From a virus, in IMG/VR virus record IMGVR_UViG_3300006802_000600, positions 1 through 23,318 of that record: a stretch of 23,318 nt of DNA, one strand, 5' to 3'. Below the pieces are notes generated by a model. The model was not told where the DNA came from. It worked only from the letters and a program-made list of their open reading frames with translations, and ran no database searches. Position 1 is the first letter of the stretch. Each line of letters opens with the position of its first letter. A program made the translations under genes and the position numbers. Shown piece by piece: positions 1,648 to 19,610 of the stretch.

Positions 1648-2453
1648 TACTTGCCTCCACCAGAGGATTTAGTAGTAGTAACTTGTCCCATAGGAGCACC
1701 ATAAGCTGCACCCAAGTATGAAGCAAGTTTATTGTATGGTAAGTTTTGACCAAATTCATATCTTGCAATATCAGCATCAAGTGCTTGTTGTTGGTAATCT
1801 TCTGAAATTTGACCAATATTTAATAATTGATTGATATCTTGATAATCTGCTTGTGCCATTTGTGGAGCACCAGCAGTTGCTTGCATTTGTCTTGCTCTTT
1901 CGTCTGCATAGTTTGAATAACCTAATTCACCAGCTTTATTAACTAATGTATTAGCAAATGTTTGTGATGCTCGATCTTGTAAATCACCCATAGCACCAGA
2001 ACCATAACGACCTGCTTTAGATGATTGTGATGCAACATTTTTCAATGTATCAAAATATTGTTGACCTGCAGCTTGACCCATGCCTCTCATAGCATCTTGT
2101 AAAAATGGATTGTTTCCTAAATATTGACCTTGTATTGTTGCCATTTGTTGTTGCTGGGCCGCAGGCAATAAAGCATTTCCTGCTAACGCTCTATTTTGAG
2201 CAGCTTGCAATGCAGATTGAGTTTGAGCAGACGGAGAAATAAATGTTTGTCCGGGATAATATTGAGGAGTGTCAGCTTGATATAACTGTTTTGCCTCTTC
2301 AAGTCCGTATTGCACGAATGGACGTACAGTTGGATCTAATTGGTTTTGTGTTGTAGACGAACTACCTCCACCACCACCTCCTTTGTAGAATGTCAATAAT
2401 TGCACCATTCCTGTTCCAAAGAAAATGTTAAATATTTTGTGAAAAGGTATCAT
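1647..2453 (-). CDS. Structural protein with FHK-type N-terminal leader (copy 2)
   Basis: A 268-aa protein. Residues 1-22 are a hydrophobic leader (MIPFHKIFNIFFGTGMVQLL, then TF) closely matching the start of the otherwise unrelated 185-aa protein at 16569-17126. Residues 24-33 are a Gly/Ser linker. From about residue 38 the chain is Gln/Ala-rich and probably helical (LEEAKQLYQ at 51-59, a QQQQ run near 100-103, and further Ala/Gln helices up to 180). This body resembles Gln/Ala-rich virion proteins of marine podophages that usually begin at the Gly/Ser stretch, so the leader looks added. The ATG overlaps the TGA of the upstream GNAT-like gene as ATGA. A structural or ejection role is inferred from context; the leader's function is unknown. 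Confidence 0.75.
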   Translation of the reverse strand: MIPFHKIFNIFFGTGMVQLLTFYKGGGGGGSSSTTQNQLDPTVRPFVQYGLEEAKQLYQADTPQYYPGQTFISPSAQTQSALQAAQNRALAGNALLPAAQQQQMATIQGQYLGNNPFLQDAMRGMGQAAGQQYFDTLKNVASQSSKAGRYGSGAMGDLQDRASQTFANTLVNKAGELGYSNYADERARQMQATAGAPQMAQADYQDINQLLNIGQISEDYQQQALDADIARYEFGQNLPYNKLASYLGAAYGAPMGQVTTTKSSGGGK

Positions 2454-2860
2454 AGTTTTAACTCCATTAGTGTATATTTAGGTTTCATATTCCATTTGAT
2501 TCGCCATAATCGTTCTATAGCTTTTAGCTTGGTTGAGCCTTGAATTGATGTGCCACCATTTTGTTTTACCCACTCAACAAATTGATTCCATGCTTCTTGA
2601 CTTGTTGTACCACCTATATAAGTGATATAACAAACACGATCATTGGGATATGTAACCCATTGAATAGTTAATGCACAAGTACATTTTTTTTCTTGATTTA
2701 ACACTAAAAGTAATATGCAATTACCTTCAGCAGTAAATAATTTAAGTTGATCAATAGTGAATTCACCATTGCCTGCGTCTAATGCTCTTTGTAAGTGAGG
2801 AATTGCAAGGCACCAGTATTGGTGAACCAACTGTTGTGGAATAACAAACAGTGTGTCCAT
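2450..2860 (-). CDS. GNAT-like small phage protein (copy 2)
   Basis: A 136-aa protein resembling the small GNAT-fold proteins that many podophages encode near virion genes. The pattern ALTIQWVTYPNDRVCYITYIGG (starting at residue 63, beta strands around a YP turn) followed by an EAWNQFVEWVKQNGG helix (89-103) fits the fold. The C-terminal GRxGWxR motif seen in better conserved members is not recognisable here. It aligns over its full length with the protein at 17123-17512. The ATG at 2860 has AAAGGAG eight bases upstream, so the start is secure. Whether it binds acetyl-CoA is unknown; it may be a virion component rather than an enzyme. It is translationally coupled by ATGA to the FHK-leader protein downstream. 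Confidence 0.75.
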   Translation of the reverse strand: MDTLFVIPQQLVHQYWCLAIPHLQRALDAGNGEFTIDQLKLFTAEGNCILLLVLNQEKKCTCALTIQWVTYPNDRVCYITYIGGTTSQEAWNQFVEWVKQNGGTSIQGSTKLKAIERLWRIKWNMKPKYTLMELKL

Positions 2861-2898
2861 AAGATATACTCCTTTGAGTCTATCCTATTTTATCATAT

Positions 2899-2927
2899 AC
2901 TATAAGTCTGCCCTGACTACCCAACAA
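2899..2927 (-). promoter_or_regulatory. Possible sigma-70-like promoter before the second GNAT-like gene
   Basis: On the minus strand TTGTTG (2922-2927) and TATAGT (2899-2904) are separated by exactly 17 bases, followed by the 56-base gap before the GNAT-like gene, one of the few real gaps in this operon. The -10 box matches the consensus in five of six positions, the -35 box in only three. It could be a secondary late promoter or chance in AT-rich DNA. Confidence 0.25.
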
Positions 2928-3723
2928 TAAGATATCTATAAGTTTTGTCTGCAATATTGTTAGCAAAGTGAGCAATAGTCGCCTCACCTTTACCTGTATT
3001 AGATATATAGATGTTGTTTACATTATTAGGTGCTACATAGTTAACTGTACAGATAACTGATGGTATTGCAGGTCTAATAAATGGTGATGTTTGTGCAGGA
3101 CTAGACCATAAAGATATATCTGTAGAAGATGTTGCACCTGCTAATTCTACATAATCACCTGCTGTTAATTCTAAAAATAGATTCATAGCACCAATCATTT
3201 CAGATGGATCACCTGTTGATTTTCTTGCAGGTAAACCAAAACGACTTGCTGATCTCGTTACATCTGCACCATTAACACGATACCAAATTTCTGCAAATTC
3301 ACCATCATTACTATTGTTTTGTAACTGTACTGTAAATGTTATGTTATATGTACCTGCATTTCTTACATACATTCTTGATGGTGTGCCACTATTAACATAA
3401 ATGCCATTACTGATTTCTGTTGTATCAAATACCACAACTGCTGTATTACCAATTGATGGTGCTAACTGCGTTGTAGTGTCGCTAAATACTCCATAAGGTG
3501 TTGTATCAAAAAATGCTTCTGTAGAGTATGGCATTAAATAGATTACTGAATCATAACCTATTCGTTCATCATAAATGGTAGTTGTATTTGCCCACCCAGT
3601 ATTTAATGTAATTTCACCAGTATTGTTAGATTTACCTTCTACTAAGTTGTTAACTACTTCAGCTACTAATCGAGGTTCAGCTCCCTGAAAAGGTAGCTTA
3701 CGATACATATTATTACGAGCCAT
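2917..3723 (-). CDS. Jelly-roll-like virion/tail surface protein
   Basis: A 268-aa protein, mostly predicted beta. Residues 1-70 (MARNNMYRKLPFQGAEPRLV, then VVNNLVEGK and an NTG-ITL-NTG stretch) look like an attachment region. Residues about 117-232 have the strand pattern and motifs of C1q/TNF-like jelly rolls used by phage tail and capsid decorations: YVRNAGTYNITFTVQLQN, EIWYRVNG, FLELTAGDYVELAGA, then IRPAIPSVICTVNYV. No enzymatic motif is seen. It starts one base into the stop of the propeller-like gene (TAATG) and ends at a 56-base gap. Likely a surface-exposed tail or head-tail component. Assignment to a particular part of the particle is inference. Confidence 0.75.
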   Translation of the reverse strand: MARNNMYRKLPFQGAEPRLVAEVVNNLVEGKSNNTGEITLNTGWANTTTIYDERIGYDSVIYLMPYSTEAFFDTTPYGVFSDTTTQLAPSIGNTAVVVFDTTEISNGIYVNSGTPSRMYVRNAGTYNITFTVQLQNNSNDGEFAEIWYRVNGADVTRSASRFGLPARKSTGDPSEMIGAMNLFLELTAGDYVELAGATSSTDISLWSSPAQTSPFIRPAIPSVICTVNYVAPNNVNNIYISNTGKGEATIAHFANNIADKTYRYLIVG

Positions 3724-5177
3724 TATCTATTGCCTGTTTTAATATAATCTATATCAAGTGCTATTACATTGCTCCATAATGTTCCTAAAGGCTCTATCGC
3801 TATTCTGTGATATCGCCCACCTGACCTTAAAGATGTTCTGCCAATATTACTTGTATTGTATGGAGAACTAAATACTAATGGATCAAATAAGTTTTTACGA
3901 GATGCTATCTTAATTGTCGATAAACCATTTACACCACCAGAACCTACAGTATCAATTTGTGGTCTAATTAGATTAATGACTGAGTTATATCCAAACTCTA
4001 AATCAGATGTAATAATTTCTGAATTATAATTTGATCCAGTAAAGGTTACTATTTTATTACCTCTGGCACCTGCAAATAAGAACTTACCACCTACGAACAC
4101 TCGATCATCTAGTGATGCAGGCATAGCTTCTAATGTTCCATATAGGCTATCTAATGTTTCTAATACCACACCTGCTGTTGCAATATTACCTAAAACATCA
4201 GCATCTGTAACAACTCTTGACCATTTATTTAATTGCCAATTGTATACTAATGTACTTCTTTGACCTTGAACGTTTGGATAATTCCATACTACTAATTTTT
4301 TAACTGGATCTACAGATGTAGACATAGTGTCTATATCAGTTAATGCAACATCATCAAAAAAGTATCTGTCTACTTTTTCTGTACCAATTCCTTGAACTCT
4401 AGTTCCATCACATTTGTAAAAACCATCATCAGATAAGAAAAATGTTTCATTTCCAAACTGAGCAATAGATCCACCATCAATACATCCTAAGCCTCTTGAG
4501 ATTGTATCGAACTGGAAGAATAAAGGTGAGCCTACGTATGACATACGCACAATAGCTTTTTCTAAGAATATAAGACCAAACTCTCCCCCTGACAGCCCAG
4601 TAATATTTCCCCCATCTCCGAGCAATTGAAAATCTGACTGACTTGTAGAACCTGACACCCATAAGGTCTCATCGTTGATATCCGACCAGATAACTTTAGT
4701 TGGGTCTGATCCAGTATTTAAATTAGCAGCAACGACAAAGTCACGCACAACTGTTACAAATTTAGCAATAGGTGCAGATGCAGATACATCGGCAAATACT
4801 GATGATGATCCAATATACCATGCTTGTAGTTTCTCTTGATCATTGGCACCAATAATAGCATTACCAAACTGAGTAAATCTCCATGGCGATGTAGAGGAAT
4901 AACCACCTACTTTAGAAACATCATCCAAATTTCTATTGGTAGGATTGTATTTAAATAACTTAGTAGAACCTCCACCTAGGATTTGTACGTTATCACCATA
5001 CTTACCAACTAATACTGAATTTAATGCCTCGCTTCCTGCATTAGAATAATCTTCTGCATTTGGAAATGGTGCATAACCCAATGATACTGGATATACATTT
5101 CTAGCATCTCTTAAGCTACCAGAGACTGCGTGTTGATCAGGTGTCCATTCACCAAGAGATATTCTTGTTGTCGTCAT
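3723..5177 (-). CDS. Head-tail/tail stabilisation protein, P22 gp10-like beta-propeller type
   Basis: A 484-aa protein built of repeated blade-like segments: GDNVQILGGGSTKLFKYN (starting near residue 60), PWRFTQFGNAIIGAN (near 98), FVTVVRDFVVAAN, KVIWSDINDETLW, then GNETFFLSDDGFYKCDG with a following DRYFFDDV. This combination is typical of podophage proteins annotated as packaged-DNA stabilisation protein (P22 gp10) or T7 gp12-like tail tube. These form the lower part of the tail below the adaptor ring. The ATG at 5177 overlaps the stop of the adhesin gene as ATGA, and the stop overlaps the next ATG. The family call is from recalled pattern, not a search. A T7 gp12-like nozzle is the main alternative. 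Confidence 0.75.
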   Translation of the reverse strand: MTTTRISLGEWTPDQHAVSGSLRDARNVYPVSLGYAPFPNAEDYSNAGSEALNSVLVGKYGDNVQILGGGSTKLFKYNPTNRNLDDVSKVGGYSSTSPWRFTQFGNAIIGANDQEKLQAWYIGSSSVFADVSASAPIAKFVTVVRDFVVAANLNTGSDPTKVIWSDINDETLWVSGSTSQSDFQLLGDGGNITGLSGGEFGLIFLEKAIVRMSYVGSPLFFQFDTISRGLGCIDGGSIAQFGNETFFLSDDGFYKCDGTRVQGIGTEKVDRYFFDDVALTDIDTMSTSVDPVKKLVVWNYPNVQGQRSTLVYNWQLNKWSRVVTDADVLGNIATAGVVLETLDSLYGTLEAMPASLDDRVFVGGKFLFAGARGNKIVTFTGSNYNSEIITSDLEFGYNSVINLIRPQIDTVGSGGVNGLSTIKIASRKNLFDPLVFSSPYNTSNIGRTSLRSGGRYHRIAIEPLGTLWSNVIALDIDYIKTGNR

Positions 5178-6133
5178 GCGTAATTAATCCCATTATAAAA
5201 AGTACCTGCTGTGACATTGCCTGCGTTAGTAGAAGGAAATGCTCTTCCTAAACCCCATATAATACGTACACATCCTTTAGCACCATATCCTGATGAACCA
5301 GATGCGTCAGCACCACCACCCCCACCACCATATAGTCCACCATTTTTACCTTGACCATCTTGTCCACCAGAGCCACCAGTTCCTGAAGCACCTTGTTCGT
5401 ATCCTCTGTTTATACCAGACGTACCTTGTCCAAATGGGTTTACTCCACCACCACCTGCTGCTTGAGAATCGCCACCACCACCTCTACCACCTGCACCACC
5501 AGTTACAGAGTTACCATTGCCTGAATAACCACCTGCACCTGATCCACCTCGACCTGCTGTGTCATCATATCCTGAAGTAGTACCACCAGAACCACCACCT
5601 TGTCCATTATATGAACCACCAGTACCCGGAGCAGATGGACTGTTTGGTGATATACCACCTCCTCCACGCACAGTTGTAGTGTTTATAAAATAACTATCAC
5701 CACCATTTTGTAATCCATAGTCATTACCTACACCTGCCTGACCTACAACAACTGTATATAACGCACCCGGAGAAACGGCAATATTATTTCGCCAACCTAA
5801 ACCACCACCTCCACCTCCGTTGCCTGCAGCACCTGAGTGGTATCCACCACCACCTCCACCTATTGCAACTGCACAAACAGAATAAACACCATCTGGGCAG
5901 GTCCAATCAGTTGTACCTACTGTGGTATATAATGCTTGACCTTGAATGCTGAATGTACCACTATACCAATCTGTAATACTAATTACGCTATTATTGGCAG
6001 TTCTATTTCTAGTTGAAGTTGTTGCTAATCTACGAGATGCAACTTCATTAAAACTGATTTGCGTACCAGATGCACGTTGTAGTTCTATATTAGCGTCATC
6101 AAAACTAATTTGACCTGATGATTGAACAGCCAT
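5174..6133 (-). CDS. Glycine-rich tail adhesin
   Basis: A 319-aa protein. Residues 8-61 hold three related strands (QISFDDANIEL, QISFNEVASRRL, VISITDWYSGTF), a pattern common at the base of marine phage fibre proteins. Residues about 68-90 form a small beta domain. Residues 92-290 are dominated by Gly runs (GGGGGG at 92-97, GGGGGG at 106-111, and many later GGxGG units), suggesting a polyglycine-II-like sandwich as known for the gp38 adhesin of phage S16. The end, RIIWGLGRAFPSTNAG, is typical of marine phage glycine-rich proteins. It directly follows the S74 fibre gene (one-base TAATG overlap), matching a fibre followed by its tip adhesin. Receptor binding is inferred. Confidence 0.8.
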   Translation of the reverse strand: MAVQSSGQISFDDANIELQRASGTQISFNEVASRRLATTSTRNRTANNSVISITDWYSGTFSIQGQALYTTVGTTDWTCPDGVYSVCAVAIGGGGGGYHSGAAGNGGGGGGLGWRNNIAVSPGALYTVVVGQAGVGNDYGLQNGGDSYFINTTTVRGGGGISPNSPSAPGTGGSYNGQGGGSGGTTSGYDDTAGRGGSGAGGYSGNGNSVTGGAGGRGGGGDSQAAGGGGVNPFGQGTSGINRGYEQGASGTGGSGGQDGQGKNGGLYGGGGGGADASGSSGYGAKGCVRIIWGLGRAFPSTNAGNVTAGTFYNGINYA

Positions 6134-6879
6134 TATTCACCTTTCAATAAATCAACTTCTGCTTTTAACTCTTTAATTGCCTCTATTAATAACGGAACTA
6201 ATCTATCATAGTGAACTGTCATATATTGTTCATCAATTGGTGCAGGTGATATAACTTCAGGTAATACTTTATTTACTTCCTGAGCAGATACACCTACTTC
6301 TTTATGAATTTCATATCCTAAATCAACGGCAGTTTGGTTAGCATGATAGTAAAATCCATTTAAACTACATACTTTATCCAAAGCATCTTCTATGTTGCCT
6401 AATTTAGTTTTTAAACGATCATCTGAATAGTATGCAGTAATGTTGTTTGTCGCTCTGATCTCACCTGCTGTTCCAGAAGCTGCAGTGCCAATACCAATAG
6501 ATTGAAACTCAACGTTGTTTGAAACTCCTAACCCTAAGTTAGCACGAGCAGTCACTAAGTCAGTAGAACCTAAGCCACCTTGTGCAAATGATAATGGAGT
6601 AGTTAAACCAGTAATTTCAGTAATATCTGAGTTCACACCTGATTTAGCAGCACCAATATTTGTTCTAGCAGTTGTTGCATTATTAGCACCAGTACCACCT
6701 GCAACGATAGGTAATAAATCACCATTTGTACCTGCGTAGAAGTCTGCCAAATGAGCCATAACTTCTCGTATAGCGTTGTTAATACCAGATGGTGGGCAGT
6801 TTTCAGCAATGTTAATACTATCTATATCAACGTTGTTTGCTGCCGTTGCATCATATTCACTGATCTTTGTACGTGCCAT
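6133..6879 (-). CDS. Tail fibre with C-terminal S74 self-cleaving chaperone domain
   Basis: A 248-aa protein. Residues 1-50 (MARTKISEYDATAANNVDID, then CPPSGINNAIREVMAHL) are a fibre-base region common in marine phages. Residues 61-78 and 101-117 are two copies of the collar/fibre repeat GG(T/L)G-x-x-x-x-TAR-x-N(I/L)G. Residues 150-248 are an intramolecular chaperone of the Peptidase S74 family: YYSDDRLK with Ser152 and Lys157 spaced five apart like the Ser911/Lys916 dyad of endosialidase NF, GVSAQEVNKVLPEVI (196-210), and a C-terminal trimeric helix VHYDRLVPLLIEAIKELKAE. In this family the domain folds the trimer and then cleaves itself off just before the Ser. The mature fibre would then be about 151 residues. 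Family and residues are seen; cleavage is expected from the family. Confidence 0.9.
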   Translation of the reverse strand: MARTKISEYDATAANNVDIDSINIAENCPPSGINNAIREVMAHLADFYAGTNGDLLPIVAGGTGANNATTARTNIGAAKSGVNSDITEITGLTTPLSFAQGGLGSTDLVTARANLGLGVSNNVEFQSIGIGTAASGTAGEIRATNNITAYYSDDRLKTKLGNIEDALDKVCSLNGFYYHANQTAVDLGYEIHKEVGVSAQEVNKVLPEVISPAPIDEQYMTVHYDRLVPLLIEAIKELKAEVDLLKGE

Positions 6880-6889
6880 TTATATTTCC

Positions 6890-7258
6890 TTAAGGGTTTA
6901 TTATATCAGTCCAAGATTCATTGCCGGGAGCAACTGGACTCCACTCTTGACCTTTTCTGTATGAGTCAGCAGTAAAACTTGCTACTGCGTTCATTCTGGT
7001 GCTTAAGTTAGCAGGACTTCTGATAGCATTAGATACCATAAATCCACTAGCATTAACTGCACCAAGAATAGGTGTTCTAACTCTTATTGCATTACAAGTT
7101 ACTGATGCTTGTGCTAATACTCTACCAGTAGAACCTTGCAATATTTGAGTCGAGAGAACTTCACATTCTCCCGATGCAAATAATTGTGCAACACCCTCAC
7201 GAATCTCAGGTGGTCTAGTTGAGTATGGTACTGAACCAAGTGAGTATAGTCCTAGCAT
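6890..7258 (-). CDS. Small structural protein of the tail region, unknown
   Basis: A 122-aa protein beginning MLGLYSLGSVPYSTRPPEI and mostly predicted beta (GECEVLSTQILQGSTGRVLA, then ASVTCNAIRVRTPI). It ends with a GQEWSPVAPGNESW segment. I do not recognise a family. It starts three bases after the stop of the 1730-aa gene and ends ten bases before the S74 fibre start, so it sits between the largest tail protein and the fibre and is probably a linker or accessory fibre component. Two Cys residues (about 32 and 55) are noteworthy but not arranged like a metal site. Confidence 0.7.
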   Translation of the reverse strand: MLGLYSLGSVPYSTRPPEIREGVAQLFASGECEVLSTQILQGSTGRVLAQASVTCNAIRVRTPILGAVNASGFMVSNAIRSPANLSTRMNAVASFTADSYRKGQEWSPVAPGNESWTDIINP

Positions 7259-7261
7259 TTA

Positions 7262-10200
7262 TTATGCCTGACTTTCTGTCCAAGAGATACGACCAGTAAT
7301 CGTAAATGGGTTAGCAGTAGTAACAAGAGATGGATCTTCTGTTAGTTTAGCAACAATTGTTAAAACGTCAGGTCCGTCTGGGTACGTATTGTTACCACCC
7401 AAGATTGAGTTACCTAATGTTGCTACTTCTTCAAGTTGTTCTGAAGTTACAACAGGAGTCCTTGCAGTTGTACCTGCACCACCCTCTGCTCGGAATGAGT
7501 AGATGTCGTTACCACCTGTGATCGTGTCTTTGTTAGTATGATAGATCAATTGTGATAATGATGGGTTAGTTACTCGTTGCCATGCTGAGTTGTCAATCTG
7601 ACCATTTAGTCGTAACACAATTTCACAAGCGTGTGTTGTTAAGATACCAACTGACTTGAGAATTAACTGCATTCTGTTTACGATTTCACGCTCACCTAAG
7701 AAACCCGGAGTGTTAGTATCAACAGATGGTGCTAGTCGGATACTGATTAATGGAATATCGTACACAACTGGTTGAGTAGTACCTGCCAATGTTACTGTGT
7801 AAGCAGTATTAGTACCTGCTGTTCCACTTGGAGCCCTATCAACTACAACTAAGTTTCTTGAGGAGAAGTTAAAGTTATAACCTGCAGAAGAAAGTATAGA
7901 TGGTAGATATGGTTGTTGTGGTGATACTCTGCCGTCTTGTGGGTTTCTTGTGAAACCTGTTAAGTTAGCACCAGTAATTGATAATCCACTTGTTAAAGTG
8001 TTATATGTACTAGATGGTGCTACTTCTAAGGCATAACCAATTGCTCTTAATTGGTTTTGAACATAAGCATAGTAATATCCAGTATATGCTGATCTACCTG
8101 TTACTGTTAAGGTATTAGTACCAGTTAACTGAACAGATTGAGATGATGCAGTAAAGATGTATGCTTTATCGTCATCGAATCTTCCGTCCATAATAACAGA
8201 TGTACCCCAGTGTGCTAAAGCAGGTACATAAGTTGGTTGACCAATGTTTTGAATGTCATAACGAGCAGGTAAGTTACCTGATCTTAAATATGCTTCTGAG
8301 AATTTGTTGTTGTGAATAAATTCATGAACATATTTAACGTTACCATGTTGATCTTTAAATCCAAAACGTACTTTACCTGCACCATACCATGAGTAATCCA
8401 TGTATGCCATTTGGATTCTACTTAAATTCAAGTAATATCCTGTTGGGCCTGTACCATCACAAACATCTAAATTCCATGCAGTTTGAGGAATTTTTGTATC
8501 TATAGTTTTAGTTACAATAACTTTAGATTGTGAAGTTCCTCTGTATGATGGTGCAATATACAATGTTGTGTCTGATGTAATTGCAGTAATTAAATAAGAT
8601 TGACCTTTAATAACGATCATTCCACCTACGTTTAATTGTGATAAGAACTTAGTATTAGTACCAGTTACAACACCTTCACCAAACGCTACAGATACATAAC
8701 CTGAGATCTGTTGAGTAGATGAACGTCTACATACTTTTAACTCTTGTCCATCAAATTCAAAGTACATACCATTTTGGTCATCAAACAAACCACAACGTAA
8801 TGCTGAGTTTTGCCATGCGTTAACATAGAATTCAGCAAATGCACCTGTTGATTGTGCAGTTGATGGGAATGTTGCTAATGTGAACTCAAATGAATAGTCA
8901 TCTGGAACAGATGTAATTGTTTGTACACCATTGTAGAAGTCAACAAATGTACCTGCTTCATCAACGCTTGGTGCACCACTAATTGTAATCTGTAATCCAG
9001 TTGTTAATCTGTGTGGGAATTTAGTATATACACGAGTTAAACCTGTAGTACCATCAGATTCAATTCTTTCAATTGATACTGTTGGTCTAAAGTTAACTGC
9101 GAAAGATACTTGAATACCTTTACCAGATTGATAACGGAAGTATTTACGAGTTTGACGAATCATCTGTGAATCTGGGTTAGTAGATGGGATCAATTCAACA
9201 CCACCATCATATGGTCTATGTAATGCAAAACCATCTGATCGGATCAATAGACCTGTACCAACAGCATACTCTTGACCAGTTAATGTTGCATCAGCACCAC
9301 CAGTTAATTTGATTCGTGTTGTACTTAATACTGCTTCAACTGTTGATTGGTAAGTTGCACCAATGTTATTTAATTTCCAAAGTTCAACACCTACACCAAC
9401 TGTTGTAATGTTAATTAAACCTGTATTGTTGATAGCACCAGTTCTAGTTGGGTGTAATGTAACTGCTGTAGCACTAATTGCTCTTACATAGTAGAAATAA
9501 CCACTAATTAATCCACCGGGGTTAGTTTCTGCATACATAATAACCATATCACCATTACTAAATCCATGTGAGACTGATGTTGTTAAACTGTCTGCTGACA
9601 CATCAATTGATGATACTGTTCTTGTAGTAAATGATTCTGATTGATACATAGAGATAGTATCACCAGTTTTAAAGAATGATGAGAAGTTAGTATTTGCACC
9701 AATAACATCAACTTCACCACTGGTTGTACTAATTGTACCTTGACCTAAAACCTCACCAATAATGTTTGATGTTGTTAAAGTAGCAAGACCTGAACCTACA
9801 GATGATAAAGTAATTGCAGTGCCTGCAACAGCATTATCATAAGTAGTCGCAAACTTAATCCAGTTACGAGATACTCGAATAATGTAGTAGTTAGTAGAAT
9901 CAGTTAATCCACCAGTAGCAGTTCCAAGTGTTGTATACGCAACTTCATAACCTGTTCTAAAATAATGGTCAGGAATACGAACAGCATTTTGCTCAATAGA
10001 TACAGATGATGCAGGATCAAATTGAATGGTTCTAACAGGAATTTGACCTGCTGCGTGCATTGTAAATGTTGTTGGTGTTGGTGTTGTGGAAACTGCGTAA
10101 ACACCATCAGATGCACCCTCAACAGAAGCAGTTAAACGCTGTGTGCCTGTACCTGCAGTAGTAATATCTACAATAGATACTTTTCTAATTCTTGATGTTC

Positions 10201-12454: not shown

Positions 12455-12458
12455 TTAT

Positions 12459-12803: not shown

Positions 12804-12812
12804 TTTTTATCC

Positions 12813-13199
12813 TTAGTCTAATGTGACAGTTAATTGACCTGCACGAATAGTGAAAATATCTCCAGTTTCAACTAATTTGCTAATGTCAAGTGGGGTGTGA
12901 AATAACAAATTACCACCTGTAATTGTGTCATATAATGCAATGTGTGTTATTGTTCCCCATGTTGCTGATGCTTGATCAAAAGCTACATCAGCGTTAGTAG
13001 TAGCTACTCCACCTACTGGTGCTGAAAATACTGCTTGTTTTCTAGCATAAGAACCACCTGATACCTCTGTTCCTGATCCGTCATCATTTGGGTTGCTAGT
13101 ATATAAAGCAACGAATATGTCTGATGGGGATGTGTACGTTGATGCTCTTAGAACTGCATTTAATAACGCATTTTCTAAGTAATTACTCATTTCTGCCAT
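12813..13199 (-). CDS. Small tail protein of the YLENALLN / WGTITH family
   Basis: A 128-aa protein with the hallmark order MSNYLENALLNAVLRA (5-19), SDIFVALYTSNP, GTEVSGGSYARKQAVFSAP, then TWGTITHIALYDTITGGNLL and a C-terminal GDIFTIRAGQLTVTLD. These motifs mark a phage structural family common in podophages and siphophages, usually annotated as tail or fibre protein or left hypothetical. The second ATG (Met4) could also serve as start. It lies five bases after the adaptor gene, at the head-tail join in gene order, which fits a tail component made next to the adaptor. Confidence 0.75.
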   Translation of the reverse strand: MAEMSNYLENALLNAVLRASTYTSPSDIFVALYTSNPNDDGSGTEVSGGSYARKQAVFSAPVGGVATTNADVAFDQASATWGTITHIALYDTITGGNLLFHTPLDISKLVETGDIFTIRAGQLTVTLD

Positions 13200-13203
13200 G
13201 ATT

Positions 13204-13830
13204 TTACCTCGATTGTAATGTGATTGTTAATGGTGTTGATGGATATTCGCTTTCATCATCTGATTTAGCTAATGATTCAAGTCCTCTTGTATATAATGCT
13301 GACCAAGTTTGTATTCTTTCATCGTTCATGATGTATGGTTCAGCTTCTGCTAGTGAAGCGTATAACAAAAGATCTGGTGCGTATAATAAAAACTCATTTG
13401 TAGCCTTAGATGCACTGAGGTACTCAGGTCTAAAGTAATAAATCATTTTTATTGTATAATTTGCATCCGGGATTGGTGCAAACTGAAATTCTGAAGCTAA
13501 CAAAGTGTAATTTATTGGTTTACCTTTGCTTGTCGTGCTTGTATTTGCAAAAAAGTTAGCAGGTGTTTGAAATTGTAATGTAGATACAGGATTAGTATCT
13601 AAATACATTGCTTTTATTGCTAAAAAGTCATTAGGTAATGCAATTGTCCCATCATTTGCAGTCAAAGTTGCAGTAGAATACTTTAACATATTGCGTAAAC
13701 GCAAATCTCTACGTAATCTTTGCTCTGCCAACTGAATAAATAGAGGAATCTTGTCTGTTAAGTCATCACGAGCCAAATACTCAGCGACTAACTCTTTCAG
13801 TTTAGTCCAACTATCAAAATTACCTGCCAT
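13204..13830 (-). CDS. Head-to-tail adaptor protein (SU10 adaptor / T7 gp11-like)
   Basis: A 208-aa mostly helical protein. Residues 1-50 (WTKLKELVAEYLARDDLTDKI, split here as WTKLKELV and AEYLARDDLTDKI, then FIQLAEQRLRRDLRLRNM) are the typical N-terminal helices. LPNDFLAIKAMYL and the FQFAPIPDANYTIKMIYYFR strand segment follow, then the helical APDLLLYASLAEAEPYIMNDERI and W-x-x-LY. This is the pattern of adaptors that form a ring beneath the portal in SU10-like phages. Gene order (capsid, 105-aa protein, adaptor, tail) supports it. The ATG at 13830 overlaps the stop of the preceding gene by one base. Alternative naming would be tail tubular protein A-like. Confidence 0.8.
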   Translation of the reverse strand: MAGNFDSWTKLKELVAEYLARDDLTDKIPLFIQLAEQRLRRDLRLRNMLKYSTATLTANDGTIALPNDFLAIKAMYLDTNPVSTLQFQTPANFFANTSTTSKGKPINYTLLASEFQFAPIPDANYTIKMIYYFRPEYLSASKATNEFLLYAPDLLLYASLAEAEPYIMNDERIQTWSALYTRGLESLAKSDDESEYPSTPLTITLQSR

Positions 13831-14147
13831 TATACGTTTCCTTGTCGTGTTCTAAAGAATCTGTTATCAGGATTGTTAAGCCATGCTCTAAATCTCTTTT
13901 GATCTAACACATGAAAACCACGCATGATTCCTTGTTTGTTCAAATCATCAATAACTGTGAGTGGAATAGATGCAATCTTGTTATCAAATACATCATCGCC
14001 CCATCTGCTAGGGGTTAAATTAAATTCTTTTTTGTTTTGTTCAATAATGTCTGTTACATCTTGTGAAGTTTCAGCAATAAATCCACCATCATCAGTGAAT
14101 TCTACTTCTGTACTTCTAAATTCGTTGGAGTCTAGCTTTTTTTTCAT
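13830..14147 (-). CDS. Conserved small virion-region protein, unknown function
   Basis: A 105-aa charged protein: MKKKLDSNEFRSTEVEF, then ETSQDVTDIIEQNKKEFN, ARW-like PSRWGDDVFDNKIASIPL and ending FRAWLNNPDNRFFRTRQGNV. The end motif (K/R)-x-W-L-N-(N/D)-PDNR-x-FRTR is one I associate with small proteins placed between capsid and adaptor genes of marine podophages; their role is unknown to me. Translation probably starts at ATG 14147, which lies inside the preceding 50-aa ORF (32-base overlap), with an AAAAGGA stretch upstream. It may be a head completion factor, judging only by position. Confidence 0.75.
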   Translation of the reverse strand: MKKKLDSNEFRSTEVEFTDDGGFIAETSQDVTDIIEQNKKEFNLTPSRWGDDVFDNKIASIPLTVIDDLNKQGIMRGFHVLDQKRFRAWLNNPDNRFFRTRQGNV

Positions 14148-14268
14148 GATAAAAAAGTATTCCTTTTCTTTTTAACCTACCAAACATTCGGTTAACTTTT
14201 TTTTGTAATTTATTTGCTTGATGTGTATCAAGTAATCTATGTTTATATTGTGGTCTCTGTACTCTCAT
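14116..14268 (-). CDS. Very small basic ORF downstream of the capsid gene
   Basis: A 50-aa reading frame starting ATG at 14268 and stopping TAG at 14116-14118. It begins MRVQRPQYKHRLLDTHQANK and continues with many Lys and Arg (LQKKVNRMFGRLKRKGI), so it is strongly basic with no hydrophobic segment. A GGAGG Shine-Dalgarno lies eleven bases upstream but within the 3-prime arm of the UUCG hairpin that follows the capsid gene. The frame overlaps the start of the 105-aa gene by 32 bases. It fills an otherwise empty 156-base gap. I recognise no family. The overlapping location and strong RBS make it a plausible gene, but chance is possible at this length. Confidence 0.5.
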   Translation of the reverse strand: MRVQRPQYKHRLLDTHQANKLQKKVNRMFGRLKRKGILFYHEKKARLQRI

Positions 14269-14275
14269 AAAGGTA

Positions 14276-14295
14276 AAGCCCTCCGAAGAGGGCCT
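14276..14295 (-). terminator. UUCG-loop hairpin after the major capsid gene
   Basis: On the minus-strand RNA, GCCCUC and GAGGGC pair perfectly around a UUCG tetraloop. One G-U and one A-U pair extend the stem to eight pairs. The stem starts eight bases after the capsid stop and is followed by UUUACCUUU, a weak U tract. UUCG-capped GC stems are typical of factor-independent terminators and of 3-prime stabilising hairpins. The imperfect U tract suggests partial termination, giving more capsid than downstream message. Confidence 0.75.
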
Positions 14296-14303
14296 ATCCT
14301 ATA

Positions 14304-15266
14304 TTACTCTGCTAAGTCAGCAATAATTGCGTGTGCTTTTTCGTTTTTCACTTGTAAAGTGTATTCAACTAAAAGCTGAGTTTTGTCACTGTCACCAGTT
14401 TTTGCCAATTCATTTGTCATGAATGGACGTAAGTAAGCAATAGATGCGTACTCTGGATCAAGAACAAATGCTACTTCACCATTGTCATCAGTATCAGCAG
14501 TCATAAATCTGTTAGGAACAACAGATAATGTACCAAAGTCTGATAAGTAAACATCAGCAGCACCTACGATAGTTGTTGCTTTGTTTGCTGGTGCTTGATA
14601 ACGTTGTGCAGCAATACCTGCAAAAGCTGATACTACTTGTTTTTGTGTTGGTGTAACCATTAATACAGTTGGTGTACCACCTTCAACGAAAGCTTTTTTA
14701 ACTGCTGATTTAAGCATAGCTTCAGTGAAAGCTGCATCTGTACCAGATACACGAGCAGTTGTACCACCTGAACCTGCTGTACCTGCACCAACGTAGTTAG
14801 TATTTAACCATGTTTGTAATGCACCTAATTTACGTGCTGTTGAAGCATCACCAGTTACTGCAGCTTGGTTAGATAAAAGAATTTTTTCCATATCTCGTTT
14901 AAGTTCAGCAGATGCTTTGCTTAATTGATATGCTTTTTCAGATTTACGACCTGCCTTATCTACAGATTCAAGAGTACCTGAGATTTGGATAGTTTTTTGT
15001 GAAATCTGAGTTCTGTTACCAACACGACTTGTTGGTGCTAATGTTGCTGATGTAGCATCGTCACCTTCAACTGCAGCGTTTGTTAATGTTGCTGCTGCTA
15101 AAGAATCAGTTTGCCATTCGTGGTAAATAGCTGATGCTTTTGATTTACCAACAGATGACATAAATGGTGTGTCTGTTGGAGAAATGTTATAAATAACATC
15201 TGTTAAATCTTCACGTTGACCTACGGCACCGCCTGAGCCAACTACTTGGGTTTTATATGTTGCCAT
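14304..15266 (-). CDS. Major capsid protein, SU10/DUF5309-like
   Basis: A 320-aa protein with the hallmarks of the SU10-type major head protein family: REDLTDVIYNISPTDTPFMS (18-37), HEWQTDSLAAATLTNAAVEG, TQISQKTIQISGTLESVDKA, then KRDMEKILL and a C-terminal beta part ending NEKAHAIIADLAE. Such proteins have the HK97 fold and assemble the icosahedral head. The gene follows the scaffold by 14 bases, with AAGGAAG about nine bases before ATG 15266, and is followed by a UUCG hairpin, as expected for the most abundant virion protein. The scaffold gene is separate and no N-terminal delta domain is obvious. Family assignment is from strong motif recognition. Confidence 0.9.
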   Translation of the reverse strand: MATYKTQVVGSGGAVGQREDLTDVIYNISPTDTPFMSSVGKSKASAIYHEWQTDSLAAATLTNAAVEGDDATSATLAPTSRVGNRTQISQKTIQISGTLESVDKAGRKSEKAYQLSKASAELKRDMEKILLSNQAAVTGDASTARKLGALQTWLNTNYVGAGTAGSGGTTARVSGTDAAFTEAMLKSAVKKAFVEGGTPTVLMVTPTQKQVVSAFAGIAAQRYQAPANKATTIVGAADVYLSDFGTLSVVPNRFMTADTDDNGEVAFVLDPEYASIAYLRPFMTNELAKTGDSDKTQLLVEYTLQVKNEKAHAIIADLAE

Positions 15267-15280
15267 TTTAATTCACTTCC

Positions 15281-16288
15281 TTATGATATAAAGTTTTCAA
15301 AAAGAGCCGCAGCATCTGATGCTTTACCAGTCTGCTTTAGCTTATTCATTTGTTGTTTAATGATGTCTCTCGAACCTTGTTTAACCTGAGTTCCTGCTTT
15401 AACCATTTTTGGTGCTTCTGCAACCTTTTTGTTGATTTGAGGTTTAGATTTTTGAAGTTTGTCGTACATCATTGCTTTGTGTAACATTAATACATGACGA
15501 TGATCATATACATTTGATAATTCATCTTCAGTAAAACCTACACTTTTACCATAATTGCGAATTTCATTTCTGAATTGTTCGCCTTTGGCTTTGTCTGAAA
15601 ACTCTGGTAGGATTTGTGAAAGTTTCTGTGCTTCCTGTTGAACATACGATGACATTTCGTGCTGTCTTTCTGCTTGTTGCTGTTGAGCAATGCGTCTTTG
15701 TTCAGCTTGAATTTGTGCTAGTTGTTCTTTTTTCTCTGTCAGTTCTGCGACTTTAACTGCATATCCTATTGGGTCGTTTTCCTTCATATCGGCTAACGAT
15801 TCTGGTGTTTCATTTGTAGAAAGCAAAAATTGTTCTACTGCGTGTAGCCGTTGAGCGTAAGCATCTCTAACTTGTCTTGACTCTTGAATGAGTTTAGCTT
15901 CAGCTTCTACTGCCTTGCGTTGATCAGCTAATTCTTGAGTTTTTTTCGTGTAATCTGCACCAAGTTGATAGCCTTGAAGTAATTCATCGAGGGTCACTTC
16001 TTTCTCTTCGCCTGCAGCTTTTACTGTAAAGCGTTGAGGTGCTTCAAGTTCCTCTTCTTCAACTTCTTCTGCTAATTCTTCTTCTACGTCATCTGCATCA
16101 ACAACTTCATCTTCTGTTGCTTCCGCAGCTTCTTCATAGTCTGCACTATCTTCAGCACTTTCTTCAACAGTTTCTGGTTGCTCGTTGGAGTCCTCACCTG
16201 CTGATAAAATGCCTTCAAAACGTGTAGCAGCTTCATTCACAGTTAGTTCTCCACTTCCCTGTTCGGGAGTCATGGTTTCTTCACTCAT
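15281..16288 (-). CDS. Capsid scaffolding protein
   Basis: A 335-aa protein. Residues about 31-84 are extremely acidic (runs of Glu and Asp such as EEELAEEVEEEELEA). Residues 86-121 are FTVKAAGEEKEVTLDELLQG followed by YQLGADYTKKTQELA, a motif set typical of scaffold or capsid assembly proteins of podophages. Residues about 120-225 are a long charged coiled coil with QQQQ runs, and the end is basic (KMVKAGTQVKQGSRDIIKQQ), consistent with capsid-binding C-termini of scaffolds. The protein should form the internal core during procapsid assembly and then leave. It lies directly upstream of the capsid gene. ATG 16288 has AAGG seven bases before it. Confidence 0.88.
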   Translation of the reverse strand: MSEETMTPEQGSGELTVNEAATRFEGILSAGEDSNEQPETVEESAEDSADYEEAAEATEDEVVDADDVEEELAEEVEEEELEAPQRFTVKAAGEEKEVTLDELLQGYQLGADYTKKTQELADQRKAVEAEAKLIQESRQVRDAYAQRLHAVEQFLLSTNETPESLADMKENDPIGYAVKVAELTEKKEQLAQIQAEQRRIAQQQQAERQHEMSSYVQQEAQKLSQILPEFSDKAKGEQFRNEIRNYGKSVGFTEDELSNVYDHRHVLMLHKAMMYDKLQKSKPQINKKVAEAPKMVKAGTQVKQGSRDIIKQQMNKLKQTGKASDAAALFENFIS

Positions 16289-16305
16289 TGTATTTCCTTA
16301 ATGTT

Positions 16306-16345
16306 CCCTTTTGGCAAGGGTTGCCATTATAGAAAGTTCTATAAT
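16306..16345 (-). promoter_or_regulatory. Two tandem hairpins upstream of the scaffold gene
   Basis: A perfect nine-base inverted repeat (arms ATTATAGAA and TTCTATAAT with a two-base centre) spans 16326-16345 and covers the stop of the 76-aa gene. A second stem, CCCTT/AAGGG with a five-base loop, spans 16306-16320. Neither has a U tract on the minus strand, so transcript processing or stability is more likely than termination. The pair fills the 50-base gap before the scaffold and capsid genes. Confidence 0.4.
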
Positions 16346-16569
16346 ATCTTCCATGCTTTATCTTTAATGTCGCTATCTTTAGCGATTGATTCAAGATAAC
16401 CCATGATTTCGTCTATAGCTTGTAATCGATTGTAGAACTTTTCACGATCTAACATTGCAGATGGATCTGAGTATCTAATACCATTGAGTTGATTGTCTCT
16501 TAACTCTTCGATTACGTCTAAAAATTCTTGTGATTGTAATAAGTTCTTTATTGCTTCTTGTCTTGTCAT
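16339..16569 (-). CDS. Small helical protein, unknown
   Basis: A 76-aa protein, MTRQEAIKNLLQSQEFLDVI and onward, almost entirely predicted alpha-helical with alternating charge (EELRDNQ, LDREKFYNRLQAIDEI, YLESIAKDSDIKDKAW). There are no Cys and no hydrophobic segment. Similar short helical proteins often lie between portal and scaffold in podophages, without known function; that comparison is from memory. The ATG at 16569 overlaps the TAA of the preceding gene by one base, so the two are probably translationally coupled. It ends at the two-hairpin gap ahead of the scaffold gene, making it the last gene of the portal-side group. Confidence 0.75.
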   Translation of the reverse strand: MTRQEAIKNLLQSQEFLDVIEELRDNQLNGIRYSDPSAMLDREKFYNRLQAIDEIMGYLESIAKDSDIKDKAWKIL

Positions 16570-17126
16570 TATTTAGATTTGCTTACAGTTTGAGGTGCAT
16601 TAAAATTTAATTCACTACCTAATAATCCATTACCCATAAATCTTCCTGCTCCATACATTGGGGCTGATGAGTTATAAGATGCTTGAAAATTTGGAGTAGA
16701 TAATAAAGATGATGCTGGTGTGTATACACTTAAATTTTGAACTGGTGTGTAATTAGATGCGTTTCTATTTGCATTTTTAGCCATTAAATATGCCATAGAA
16801 GGTGAATATCCTTCATTCTCTCCACCTTTAACAAATCCTTTAACATCGCCTTCATACAAACCATAATCAGCATTACCTAATTTGTAACCACTACCATTAG
16901 GTTGGTAAATATTTTCACCACTGTAATATAAATTAGATCCCGGAATTTGATATAATCCGTTAGATTGTTTGATTAAGCCTAACCCGGATACAATGTTGTC
17001 TGGAACAGATGACACAGGGATGTCTTTTCTTGGTGGAGGTCCACTATAGTTCATGAAATAGTTAAAAGTACATAAACGTACTAATCCCATTCCACAAAAT
17101 AACATGATCAATTTATGAAACATCAC
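16569..17126 (-). CDS. FHK-leader protein (copy 1), Asn/Ser/Tyr-rich, unknown
   Basis: A 185-aa protein. Residues 1-21 (MMFHKLIMLFCGMGLVRLCT, then F) match the leader of the 268-aa protein at 1647-2453 at about half of positions: FHK, F, G, G, V, L, TF. The body is different: low-complexity sequence rich in Asn, Ser, Gly and Tyr (IPGSNLYYSGENIYQPNGSG at about 57-77, LGNADYGLYEGDVKG) without a recognised domain. Residues 28-32 are SGPPP. Met25 is an internal ATG but has no good RBS; the ATGA overlap with the GNAT-like gene supports Met1. It lies between portal and scaffold, so a head-assembly or ejected protein is conceivable. Function unknown; two Cys in the leader are notable. Confidence 0.7.
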   Translation of the reverse strand: MMFHKLIMLFCGMGLVRLCTFNYFMNYSGPPPRKDIPVSSVPDNIVSGLGLIKQSNGLYQIPGSNLYYSGENIYQPNGSGYKLGNADYGLYEGDVKGFVKGGENEGYSPSMAYLMAKNANRNASNYTPVQNLSVYTPASSLLSTPNFQASYNSSAPMYGAGRFMGNGLLGSELNFNAPQTVSKSK

Positions 17127-17434
17127 ACTTCCTTCATGAGTTCAGAACAGATAACTTTAAAGTTATGGTTTTTAGTTAAAAATGATTTTTCCCATCCTTG
17201 TCGACCAAGAATTGTAATATATGAACAACCTTCTTTTCTTGCATATGCTTCAGCTTCAAGATATAACTCTTCTAATTCATCCAAATTACCTGCAGCTAAA
17301 AATAAATGTAAAACAAGTTTTTTAGGGTAATATTGAACTTGAGTTATTAATGCAGAATTTTCTGTAGTCCAAAATTGAAAATCATGACAAATAATTGCGT
17401 GGTATATATCATCCATATCATATAAACCAAACAA
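17123..17434 (-). CDS. GNAT-like small phage protein (copy 1), true start probably further upstream
   Basis: From the TTG at 17434 the frame gives 103 aa, but the open frame continues upstream to 17512 and encodes IIVNKKDFNVEWNRLKDTIQ and onwards, which aligns with residues about 5-25 of the paralogue at 2450-2860 and with the usual N-terminal helix of this family. The core holds ALITQVQYYP, then LHLFLAAGN, a helix ELEELYLEAEAYARKEGCSY, and the conserved ILGRQGWEKSFL near the end. This is the GR-x-GW motif typical of phage GNAT-like proteins. No ATG, GTG or TTG exists upstream of 17434, so a non-standard start (AUA at 17504-17509) is possible. It overlaps the portal 3-prime end and is joined by ATGA to the FHK-leader gene. 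Enzymatic activity is unproven. Confidence 0.65.
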   Translation of the reverse strand: MFGLYDMDDIYHAIICHDFQFWTTENSALITQVQYYPKKLVLHLFLAAGNLDELEELYLEAEAYARKEGCSYITILGRQGWEKSFLTKNHNFKVICSELMKEV

Positions 17435-17495
17435 TAAATCAACTGCTTTTTGAATGGTATCTTTTAATCGATTCCACTCAACATTAAAATCTTTT

Positions 17496-19610
17496 TTATT
17501 GACTATTATTAGTCATACCTCTTTGAGAAATATTGTTAATTTTTTCTAAGGCATCCATGATCGTTTTAGTTTGATCTGATTGTCCTCTTTGACTCTTTTG
17601 TGTAGCATCAAGTCTGATTTGTAATTCTTTTAAAGCTAGTTCAGTTGTTTGTTGAACTTCTTTTTGTTTCAATGCTAAAGCATCTTGTTGTGCTTTTAAT
17701 TGCATTTGTTCACGATCTAACTCAAGTTTAGCTTGATCAGTTTGTGCTTTAAGCTGTGCTTTCTCACGTTCAACTTCTGCAAGAACTCTAGCAGCTTCTG
17801 TATTTGGATCTGGTTTTTCTGGTTGAGGTTGTGATAACTGCTCATTCATCTCTGGTGTAATTTCATTCATAAACTCAGTAGCGTCTTTAAAGCCTGCCAT
17901 ATGAATAAATTTAGCTAATGTATCTCGATACTGTTTAATAGAAACAAGTGGATTAGATAAACCATAATTAGTTAATATCTCTTCTTGTTTAGCTAAAATC
18001 ATTTGCATTGTAGCTAATTGCTCTTGTCTTTGACCAGTACCTAAACCTACATTGATAGTGACATTGTAGTTAGTTTTCCATTCTCTTGGATCAAATGGAA
18101 CAAACTCACCATTAATACGTACAATTTTTTGTTTTTGTTGGTACTTGCATAATAAATGTAAGATACCTCTAAATAAACTTGTTACACCTGTTTCTGCAAA
18201 TATCCTAGCAATTAACTCAAGTTTTCCAGTAGAAGAAGCAGACATAGCTGAAACCGCAGCAGCAGTTACATTTTGTAATACATCAGGATCTAATCCTTGT
18301 TGAGTATCAGAAATACCTGTGCGTTTAGCTTGAATGTTATCTAAATACTCTAACATTGGGAATGATTGACCAGCACTGCTTTGTACTGTTAATGGTACAA
18401 CGGCTGCCGGGTTTTTCAATCTCACTACACCACCTGCTGTGGATGTGAGTAAGTCATCTAAGTTAACTTGTCCTTCAACTGCACCAACACGATAGTTGTT
18501 AGTTAAGTAGAGGTTGTCTAGAATTTGTCTAGTAACAGTTGATTTAATTAATTGGATATCCATAGCACGATCAGCTAAAGATTGACCAAAGAATTTATGA
18601 GGAATTGGAATTGGGCAAAGAGAATGGAATGGAACATAGTCACATTCATGTTCTTCTAAAATTTCATTACCTGCATATACTACTCTTCTGTATTCAGCAA
18701 TGTCATCATCATCAATATCTACTTTAAGATAACATTCAAATACTTCAATTAACTGCATAGATTCATCTTGTGAATCTTTATCTAATGGTTGTTCACCACG
18801 AGTGTATCGAGCAATACGTTCTGGACTAAACTCTAAAGCATCTCCTGATGGTAATGATTCAATAATTTCTTCATCGTAACCCATAGCAATTAAATCACTA
18901 CGAGTCATCATTTTACGATGTGCAGTAAATGGAGAATCTGCTATTGTTTTAGCACGCTTAGATATTAAGAATTCTTCTGGAGGTACGTTTTCAATTGTAA
19001 CCTTACCTTTGTTTTCTGATCTTTTGAGTTTTACATTGTAGTAGTATTCATATTGAGCAGGCATGACTTCTGTGCCGTCAGGCCCCATCATTGCTTCCAT
19101 GACTAATTTTTCATTAACTTCTTTTTCTACAAGTTCTACTTCTTCATCTTGCATAAGAACTGCAAGTTCATCTTCAGAAAGATATTCGTATTTTTCTGTT
19201 TTAACATCAATTTTATCTTCCCAGTATGCTTTAACAACACCTACTTTTTGTAGTAAAGCATCTTTAAACCAGTTGTGCATAACAAGGAATCCATCATTGT
19301 CTTTATGGAATACCCAATTTGCATATTCAGTTGCTTGTTTAGCAAACGGACCATCGCCATCATTGACAGGCTCAAACTGAACAACTTTATCTCCAGACGC
19401 AAATAAACGCATGAGTTGTGGTAATGCACCATCGACAACTTCTGCAACCTCTCCAGTAACGATTTGTGATCTTCCTTCAACTTCGTTACCATAAGGCTCA
19501 CGTAAATAGTATTCAAGTGCTTTTTGTCTATCGTCAGTTGTTTCTGTCTCAAGAAAGCCTATCGAATCTTCTATTTCAGCGTCTAATATTGCTTTTAATT
19601 TTTCACTCAT
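17496..19610 (-). CDS. Portal protein
   Basis: A 704-aa protein with features of podophage portals (P22 gp1/SU10-like): an N-terminal segment EIEDSIGFLETETTDDRQKA, then ALEYYLREPYGNEVEGRSQI and VDGALPQLMRLFASGDKVVQ; a wing region with repeated acidic strands; HKFFGQSLADRAMDIQLIKS and TVTRQILDNLYLTNNYR in the middle, typical of the stem and crown; and a Gln/Lys/Glu-rich coiled-coil C-terminus (about 604-670), then a Ser/Asn-rich tail. The portal ring is the DNA entry vertex and docks the terminase made by the preceding gene. The ATG at 19610 abuts the terminase stop with no gap. Its 3-prime end overlaps the likely 5-prime end of the GNAT-like gene. Length fits large podophage portals. Confidence 0.88.
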   Translation of the reverse strand: MSEKLKAILDAEIEDSIGFLETETTDDRQKALEYYLREPYGNEVEGRSQIVTGEVAEVVDGALPQLMRLFASGDKVVQFEPVNDGDGPFAKQATEYANWVFHKDNDGFLVMHNWFKDALLQKVGVVKAYWEDKIDVKTEKYEYLSEDELAVLMQDEEVELVEKEVNEKLVMEAMMGPDGTEVMPAQYEYYYNVKLKRSENKGKVTIENVPPEEFLISKRAKTIADSPFTAHRKMMTRSDLIAMGYDEEIIESLPSGDALEFSPERIARYTRGEQPLDKDSQDESMQLIEVFECYLKVDIDDDDIAEYRRVVYAGNEILEEHECDYVPFHSLCPIPIPHKFFGQSLADRAMDIQLIKSTVTRQILDNLYLTNNYRVGAVEGQVNLDDLLTSTAGGVVRLKNPAAVVPLTVQSSAGQSFPMLEYLDNIQAKRTGISDTQQGLDPDVLQNVTAAAVSAMSASSTGKLELIARIFAETGVTSLFRGILHLLCKYQQKQKIVRINGEFVPFDPREWKTNYNVTINVGLGTGQRQEQLATMQMILAKQEEILTNYGLSNPLVSIKQYRDTLAKFIHMAGFKDATEFMNEITPEMNEQLSQPQPEKPDPNTEAARVLAEVEREKAQLKAQTDQAKLELDREQMQLKAQQDALALKQKEVQQTTELALKELQIRLDATQKSQRGQSDQTKTIMDALEKINNISQRGMTNNSQ

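Follow-up and report, generated by a model that had tools for sequence, protein, structure and literature searches.

Two pairs of a GNAT-like gene and a leader-bearing gene in the structural operon of a podovirus

Gene pairs preceding internal virion proteins in podophages

In phage P22, the gene of a small head-morphogenesis protein (gene 14; DUF2824, PF11039) lies directly before that of an ejection protein (gene 7; P22_gp7, PF25688), and in T7, gene 13 (PF11090) lies directly before gene 14 (PF24072), which encodes the first internal virion protein. The host peptidase OpdA cuts off the first 20 residues of P22 gp7, and the mature protein starts with KGGKG (PMC8402733). A GNAT-like nature has been proposed for the T7 gene 13 product, and GNAT proteins encoded beside internal virion proteins have been equated with it (PMC6775973); elsewhere, phage GNATs have been counted among possible host-metabolism genes (PMC11288001, PMC6918029). 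Here, we analyze the virus record IMGVR_UViG_3300006802_000600 of a water phage (23.3 kb in full; hereafter, the window), whose minus strand carries a podovirus structural operon with two pairs of genes, each composed of a GNAT-like gene followed by a gene with an N-terminal leader, where P22 has a single pair. Pair 1, at the ejection end of the operon, consists of P0002 (GNAT-like protein 1, 136 aa; 2450-2860, minus strand) and P0003 (internal/ejection protein; 1647-2453, minus strand). Pair 2, between portal and scaffold, consists of P0001 (GNAT-like protein 2; 17123 to ~17509, minus strand) and P0004 (an Asn/Ser/Tyr-rich accessory protein with a leader; 16569-17126, minus strand). Both the open reading frames and the positions of the two pairs agree with a preliminary description of this DNA, apart from the start of P0001, which is discussed below.

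Pair 1 follows the gene order of the described systems, with P0002 directly upstream of P0003 as T7 gene 13 is of gene 14. The class A leader of P0003 (MIPFHKIFNIFFGTGMVQLLTFY; 2385-2453, minus strand) is followed by K-GGGGGG and then by a Gln/Ala-rich body, and this junction (LTFY/KGGGGGG) resembles that of P22 gp7, in which a ~20-residue leader abuts a K-GG-rich sequence (YPE/KGGKGG); T7 gp14, in contrast, has no Gly-junction leader. P0003, whose homologs occur in Methylophilales phage Venkman and in 30+ IMG/VR loci, matches phrog_4287 ('DNA ejection protein', E 3.8e-10), as do the homologs in Venkman and in PaP3 (orf16). P0002 gave no Pfam match to the T7 gp13 family (PF11090), and its hhalign comparison with T7 gp13 was not significant. 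On the basis of gene order, the leader and the PHROG match, rather than of membership in the sequence families, pair 1 most likely works like T7 13-14 and P22 14-7, and by this analogy it would be an ordinary podophage ejection pair, which the preliminary description had overlooked. Our literature search found no paper describing the function of P22 gene 14, whose product we suspect from its sequence to be a GNAT fold. Among P22-like phages (ST-87, APSE-1 and Proteus V3; L195-L197), the gp7 leader varies or is missing and the body is conserved, the N-terminus reading MGGSSGDNG in APSE-1 and MSIIRWIENKTLPMSGLMKGGGDGG in the Proteus phage.

Further parallels are found in other podophages. In the LUZ24-like phage PaP3 (orf15/orf16) and in the roseophages CRP-3, CRP-7 and CRP-738, a member of this GNAT-like superfamily (phrog_7642) is followed by a leader gene, and the leaders end in F/Y-(K)-GG(G) (PaP3, MNFLHFNVKRLMGFNVEDALDSRAYKGGS...; CRP phages, ...IVFKGGGG); these leaders are unrelated to those of the window (FHK leaders), and a single unit is seen in each phage. 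The T7-type Roseobacter phage CRP-804 carries a GNAT and leader pair, gp21/gp22, at its head module before the portal (L211 143-1353, gp21-gp23), along with another, distinct pair, gp31/gp32, in the ejection module, which resembles T7 13/14 in position and in the gp32 N-terminus; the assignment of gp31 as a T7-gp13-type protein is our own reading rather than a database match. The gp21/gp22 cargo body and leader of this T7-like phage are unrelated to those of the window, and the head-side pair is an independent parallel to the portal-scaffold unit. Finally, the capsid-targeting sequence of T4 is likewise a short N-terminal peptide common to unrelated internal proteins; it differs in belonging to another phage type and in sharing no motif with the leaders described here.

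Joint switching of the GNAT-like gene and the leader at the portal-scaffold site

The leaders of P0003 and P0004 (MIPFHKIFNIFFGTGMVQLLTF and MFHKLIMLFCGMGLVRLCTF) are both ~23 residues long and share 10 of 19 residues (BLASTP E 3e-5), these first ~20 residues being the sole significant match between the two proteins, whose bodies are unrelated. A leader profile was built from four P0003 class A leaders and used to score ~13,100 N-terminal windows from all collected loci. After its own members, the profile ranked all portal-side (P0004) leaders next, with scores of 39-51, compared with 24 for the best unrelated window and with a mean of -8 (sd 8) for the ~13,100 other windows. Because of this separation, the portal-side leader of the window (MFHKLIMLFCGMGLVRLCTFNYF; 17055-17123, minus strand) and the class A leader are taken to be homologous, with a similarity well beyond chance, which bears out the preliminary description in its claim that one leader heads two unrelated proteins.

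To define how the leader and the GNAT-like gene are distributed, portal-scaffold gaps were gathered from IMG/VR via the scaffold and via GNAT 2, and counts were taken over distinct N-termini with enough upstream DNA. All eight P0004 genes with a GNAT gene directly upstream carry the leader, none of the 19 without a GNAT gene does, and the mixed state was found 0 times; these loci are related and represent one phage clade, so that the counts are not a plain significance test. Many more distant relatives have no P0004 at all. Loci with a GNAT gene are spread over more than one part of the portal tree: L042 (near-identical to the window), L074 and L094/L175 each stand beside GNAT-less loci, and six state changes, including P0004 absence, are required, versus a mean of 13 in shuffled data. 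Together, the counts and the scattered placement show that the GNAT gene and the leader have switched together, several times, at this site.

At the ejection site, members of this clade invariably have a GNAT gene ahead of the ejection protein, with an ATGA overlap, and it is the leader that is exchangeable. In place of class A, relatives carry the unrelated classes B (MIYDYFPELDGNQSIDNGKMGRQLFK), B' (MIYDYFPELDGNQSIDNGKMGRQLF), C, D and E, the Venkman leader being longer; all abut the Gly run, and B and B' are polar. In more distant relatives, a GNAT gene occurs without a leader (L007, L040), or neither is present (L012-L039). IMG/VR was also scanned with DNA patterns for class A and portal-side leaders, which retrieved 14 stretches; in all 13 with readable upstream DNA a GNAT gene lies upstream, and no FHK leader without such a neighbor was found among them. 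In these data, the leader thus implies the GNAT gene but not the reverse, a one-way dependence. The pairing is local and not genome-wide, because single contigs differ between their own two sites: on L071/L184, the ejection gene comes with both leader and GNAT whereas P0004 lacks the two, and the two sites of L126/L170 carry different leaders, one of them class B' and the other the portal-side leader. The proposal of the preliminary description that GNAT and leader form a unit placed before different cargo is supported by the counts at the portal-scaffold site, by the upstream GNAT gene at every readable leader stretch and by the recurrence of the arrangement in unrelated podophages.

The leader of the Venkman ejection protein gp46 (L002 20038-20157) contains GDTELAHVNTWEANLLKAHGGSGTINPVTGLREY, which also occurs in virion proteins of MW202753, MW202825 and DSL-LC04 and is possibly another exchangeable leader domain. 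It was not retained as a widespread domain, as the motif GDT..LAH..LLK..GGSGT.NP.TGL was found among the collected loci in three other phage records only; in one of them, the carrier protein bears the annotation 'tail tape measure protein'. We also discarded a similarity at L007 8617, which lies inside an unrelated protein.

Pfam scans of P0001, P0002, P0003 and P0004 gave nothing useful. The AlphaFold2 model of P0002 is a confident GNAT fold (pLDDT 92.9), for which Foldseek against the PDB returned NatD and GCN5 as top matches (NatD E 3.8e-6, TMq about 0.6-0.7), and the BFVD matches include a T7 gp13-type 'host specificity protein A'; in our own reading of the models, some of these viral neighbors may be T7 gp13-type. 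The P0001 model is of intermediate quality (pLDDT 77, with ~27 poor C-terminal residues) and has the same viral neighbors, and P0001 matches phrog_22172/7642/25629. BLASTP finds no match between P0001 and P0002, so the similarity noted in the preliminary description stands at profile level: the GNAT 1 and GNAT 2 families align end to end in hhalign (122 columns, 98.6%, E 1.3e-15, 16% identity). LUZ24-like phages, pelagiphages and roseophages encode GNAT-like proteins that are likewise homologous to both families (E 2.9e-21 and 1.5e-25), and the acetyl-CoA pyrophosphate loop [QR]xxGx[GA] is present in 0 of 20 GNAT 1 and 0 of 8 close GNAT 2 sequences, with a chance-like match in two distant sequences. 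These results show that the first genes of both pairs encode GNAT-fold proteins of a single phage superfamily that lack the acetyl-CoA loop motif. The pair had been described as copied within the genome; since homology is at profile level only and the P0001 profile is closer to the GNAT-like proteins of other podophages (E 1.5e-25) than to P0002, deep paralogy or separate acquisition fits the sequences better than a recent duplication.

A proposed chaperone with leader-bearing cargo, and alternative explanations

Our preferred reading, which we hold tentatively and a little short of an even chance, is that each pair is a unit of the podophage ejection-protein type, composed of a chaperone and a leader-bearing cargo. 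Because the acetyl-CoA loop residues are missing, a catalytic role of the GNAT-like proteins is unlikely as judged from sequence, and we favor an assembly chaperone without catalytic activity rather than an acyl transferase. Such a chaperone, encoded by a gene that overlaps that of its cargo and synthesized immediately ahead of it, would hold the leader of the nascent cargo and keep it away from membranes and aggregates until procapsid entry. The P0003 leader would then be a propeptide that a host peptidase removes at the K-GGGG junction, in the manner of OpdA and P22 gp7, and P0004, with the same type of leader behind its own GNAT-like partner, would be an extra internal or ejected virion protein. 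As pair 2 resembles the podophage pair for injected proteins, the second unit probably marks P0004 as an additional, unrecognized virion cargo protein; P0004 itself has no Pfam family, no convincing PHROG family and no phrog_4287 match. No experimental work on these proteins was found.

Several observations weigh against this reading. No similarity emerged when P0002 was compared by profile to P22 gp14 and P0003 to P22 gp7, and P0003 does not fall into P22_gp7 (PF25688). The P0004 leader has no K-GGG junction. L005 and L006 have GNATs that are 95% identical and leaders of different classes (D and C, respectively), a swap which argues that recognition of the leader by the GNAT, if any, is not strict. 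GNAT-like genes also precede leaderless ejection proteins in L007, L040, HTVC106P, DB2 and MJing1, so that some role of the GNAT must exist that needs no leader; within the same superfamily, HTVC106P, HTVC023P, DB2 and MJing1 have a GNAT before leaderless or nearly leaderless proteins. Moreover, P22 is only mildly affected when the gp7 leader is deleted, since the protein still enters the virion and the burst falls only to ~60% (PMC8402733), which by analogy argues against the leader as an essential targeting signal. Of the two roles suggested in the preliminary description, the acyl-transfer/acceptor pair is not supported, given the missing loop motif, and assembly targeting is possible and unproven, tempered by the small effect of the P22 deletion.

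A broader extension of the chaperone-and-cargo reading is that podophages use a portable loading system, in which a catalytically dead GNAT chaperone and its cognate, exchangeable leader can be set ahead of a new gene and thereby make its product virion cargo; the portal-scaffold unit of the window and the head-side unit of CRP-804 would then be independent recruitments of previously unknown internal or ejected proteins. We regard this extension as possible but somewhat unlikely.

The evolution of the leader DNA bears on a different explanation, in which phages swap modules at the leader, a short stretch of DNA that serves as a recombination junction and stays with the GNAT gene only through adjacency. 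Within a class, leader DNA is in most comparisons more alike than both flanks, synonymous sites included: portal-side leaders reach 0.93-1.0 versus typically 0.7-0.85 on either side, and the class A leader of the window compared with others reaches 0.89-0.92 against 0.62-0.65 and 0.68-0.75 in the flanks. RNA structure does not account for this conservation (z-scores of -1.5 to +1.0, no common fold), and the excess of similarity over the flanks therefore suggests that the leader moves by recombination as a short block; the swapping of leader classes between near-identical genes points the same way. However, DNA similarity between the window's portal-side leader and its counterparts in relatives is just ~52%, yet they share one protein motif with class A, dN (nonsynonymous change) is well below dS (synonymous change) in class A, loss of the GNAT gene is accompanied by loss of the leader, and the leader-(K)GGG layout of unrelated phages is left unexplained, so that we consider a mere junction unlikely. 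Leader class changes eight times on the GNAT tree, 11 times on the body tree and ~14 times in shuffles; the lower number on the GNAT tree is a weak, only suggestive sign that leader and GNAT travel together.

Alternatively, the leader could be an encapsidation signal of the T4 capsid-targeting type that binds the scaffold for delivery to the procapsid, the role of the GNAT being separate. One leader type on two unrelated proteins, one of them a predicted ejection protein, and the proximity of P0004 to the scaffold gene would fit, and for T4 IPIII the N-terminal ten residues suffice to target fusions, according to a statement in PMC8402733. We nevertheless judge this distinctly unlikely, considering that leaderless P22 gp7 still enters the virion in a state that is ~60% functional, that most P0004 proteins of relatives and the distant ejection proteins are leaderless, and that the leader classes are very different where the scaffold is conserved. 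It is quite improbable that the leader is a membrane-active peptide at DNA ejection, from which the GNAT only shields the producing cell or the virion: the short leaders of classes A, C and D and of the portal side are hydrophobic or amphipathic, but B and B' are polar, and a leader removed before assembly, as in P22, would never reach the target membrane. An active acyl- or acetyltransferase modifying the leader at its N-terminus or FHK lysine is very improbable, since the proximity of the fold to NatD (N-terminal) and GCN5 (histone) acetyltransferases and the strict local pairing at the portal-scaffold site are set against the missing loop motif, the retention of the GNAT where the leader is absent and a lysine that is not maintained across the leader classes (MIKLHHIF, MIYDYFPE).

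Gene junctions, operon context and implications

The exact ATGA overlap described for both pairs is found at the P0002/P0003 junction, where P0002 itself has a good ribosome-binding site and an ATG start; at P0001/P0004 the junction is GTGA if P0004 starts at the GTG (17126) and a 1-nt TGATG overlap if it starts at the ATG (17123), and the homologous second pairs of relatives do show ATGA. The start previously given for GNAT 2, at 17512, is a CTA codon. No ATG, GTG or TTG lies near the start in any of eight GNAT 2 homologs (window 17434-17512, minus strand, and L074, L077, L094, L169, L170, L172 and L175); ATA, ATC or ATT stands at the beginning of the conserved N-terminus, in four of the eight as part of an ATAA overlap with the portal stop. 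This pattern suggests non-canonical, coupled initiation of the GNAT 2 gene, which in the window probably starts at ATA (17509) and overlaps the 3' end of the portal gene. Within P0003, the codons of the K-G-G junction (window 2370-2384, minus strand) read AAAGGAGGTGG, a strong Shine-Dalgarno-like sequence, and L184 likewise has AAAGGAGG at this junction; the Gly codons of other relatives differ.

The operon comprises terminase, portal, scaffold, capsid protein, an SU10-type adaptor, tail proteins and the ejection module, all on the minus strand. The nearest annotated relatives of the terminase are those of Venkman (78%) and a Manatee Spring phage (76%), followed by HTVC010P-type pelagiphages (48%). 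Around pair 2, the portal protein (17496-19610) is assigned by position and by the annotation of the Venkman homolog, and the scaffolding protein (15281-16288) by phrog_3927 (E 8.9e-62); between P0004 and the scaffold lies a conserved 76-aa gene (16339-16569) that is found in relatives with or without P0004. In L070 and L071, ~280-790 nt before the scaffold, an additional gene of ~180 residues (MGSPALENFYNASQQ...) lies between P0004 and this 76-aa gene. Next to pair 1, the following gene of the ejection module (838-1647) is Gly-zipper-like, with a weak YMGG Gly-zipper match (E 0.0026) that is below the cutoff.

Little is understood of what T7 gp13, P22 gp14 and the numerous podophage proteins annotated as 'acetyltransferases' next to ejection genes do. 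The cassette that is present or absent between portal and scaffold offers a natural comparison, namely the same cargo gene with and without the GNAT and the leader, which allows a direct test of whether the GNAT serves the leader of the protein encoded next. If so, gene order alone would predict new virion cargo proteins.

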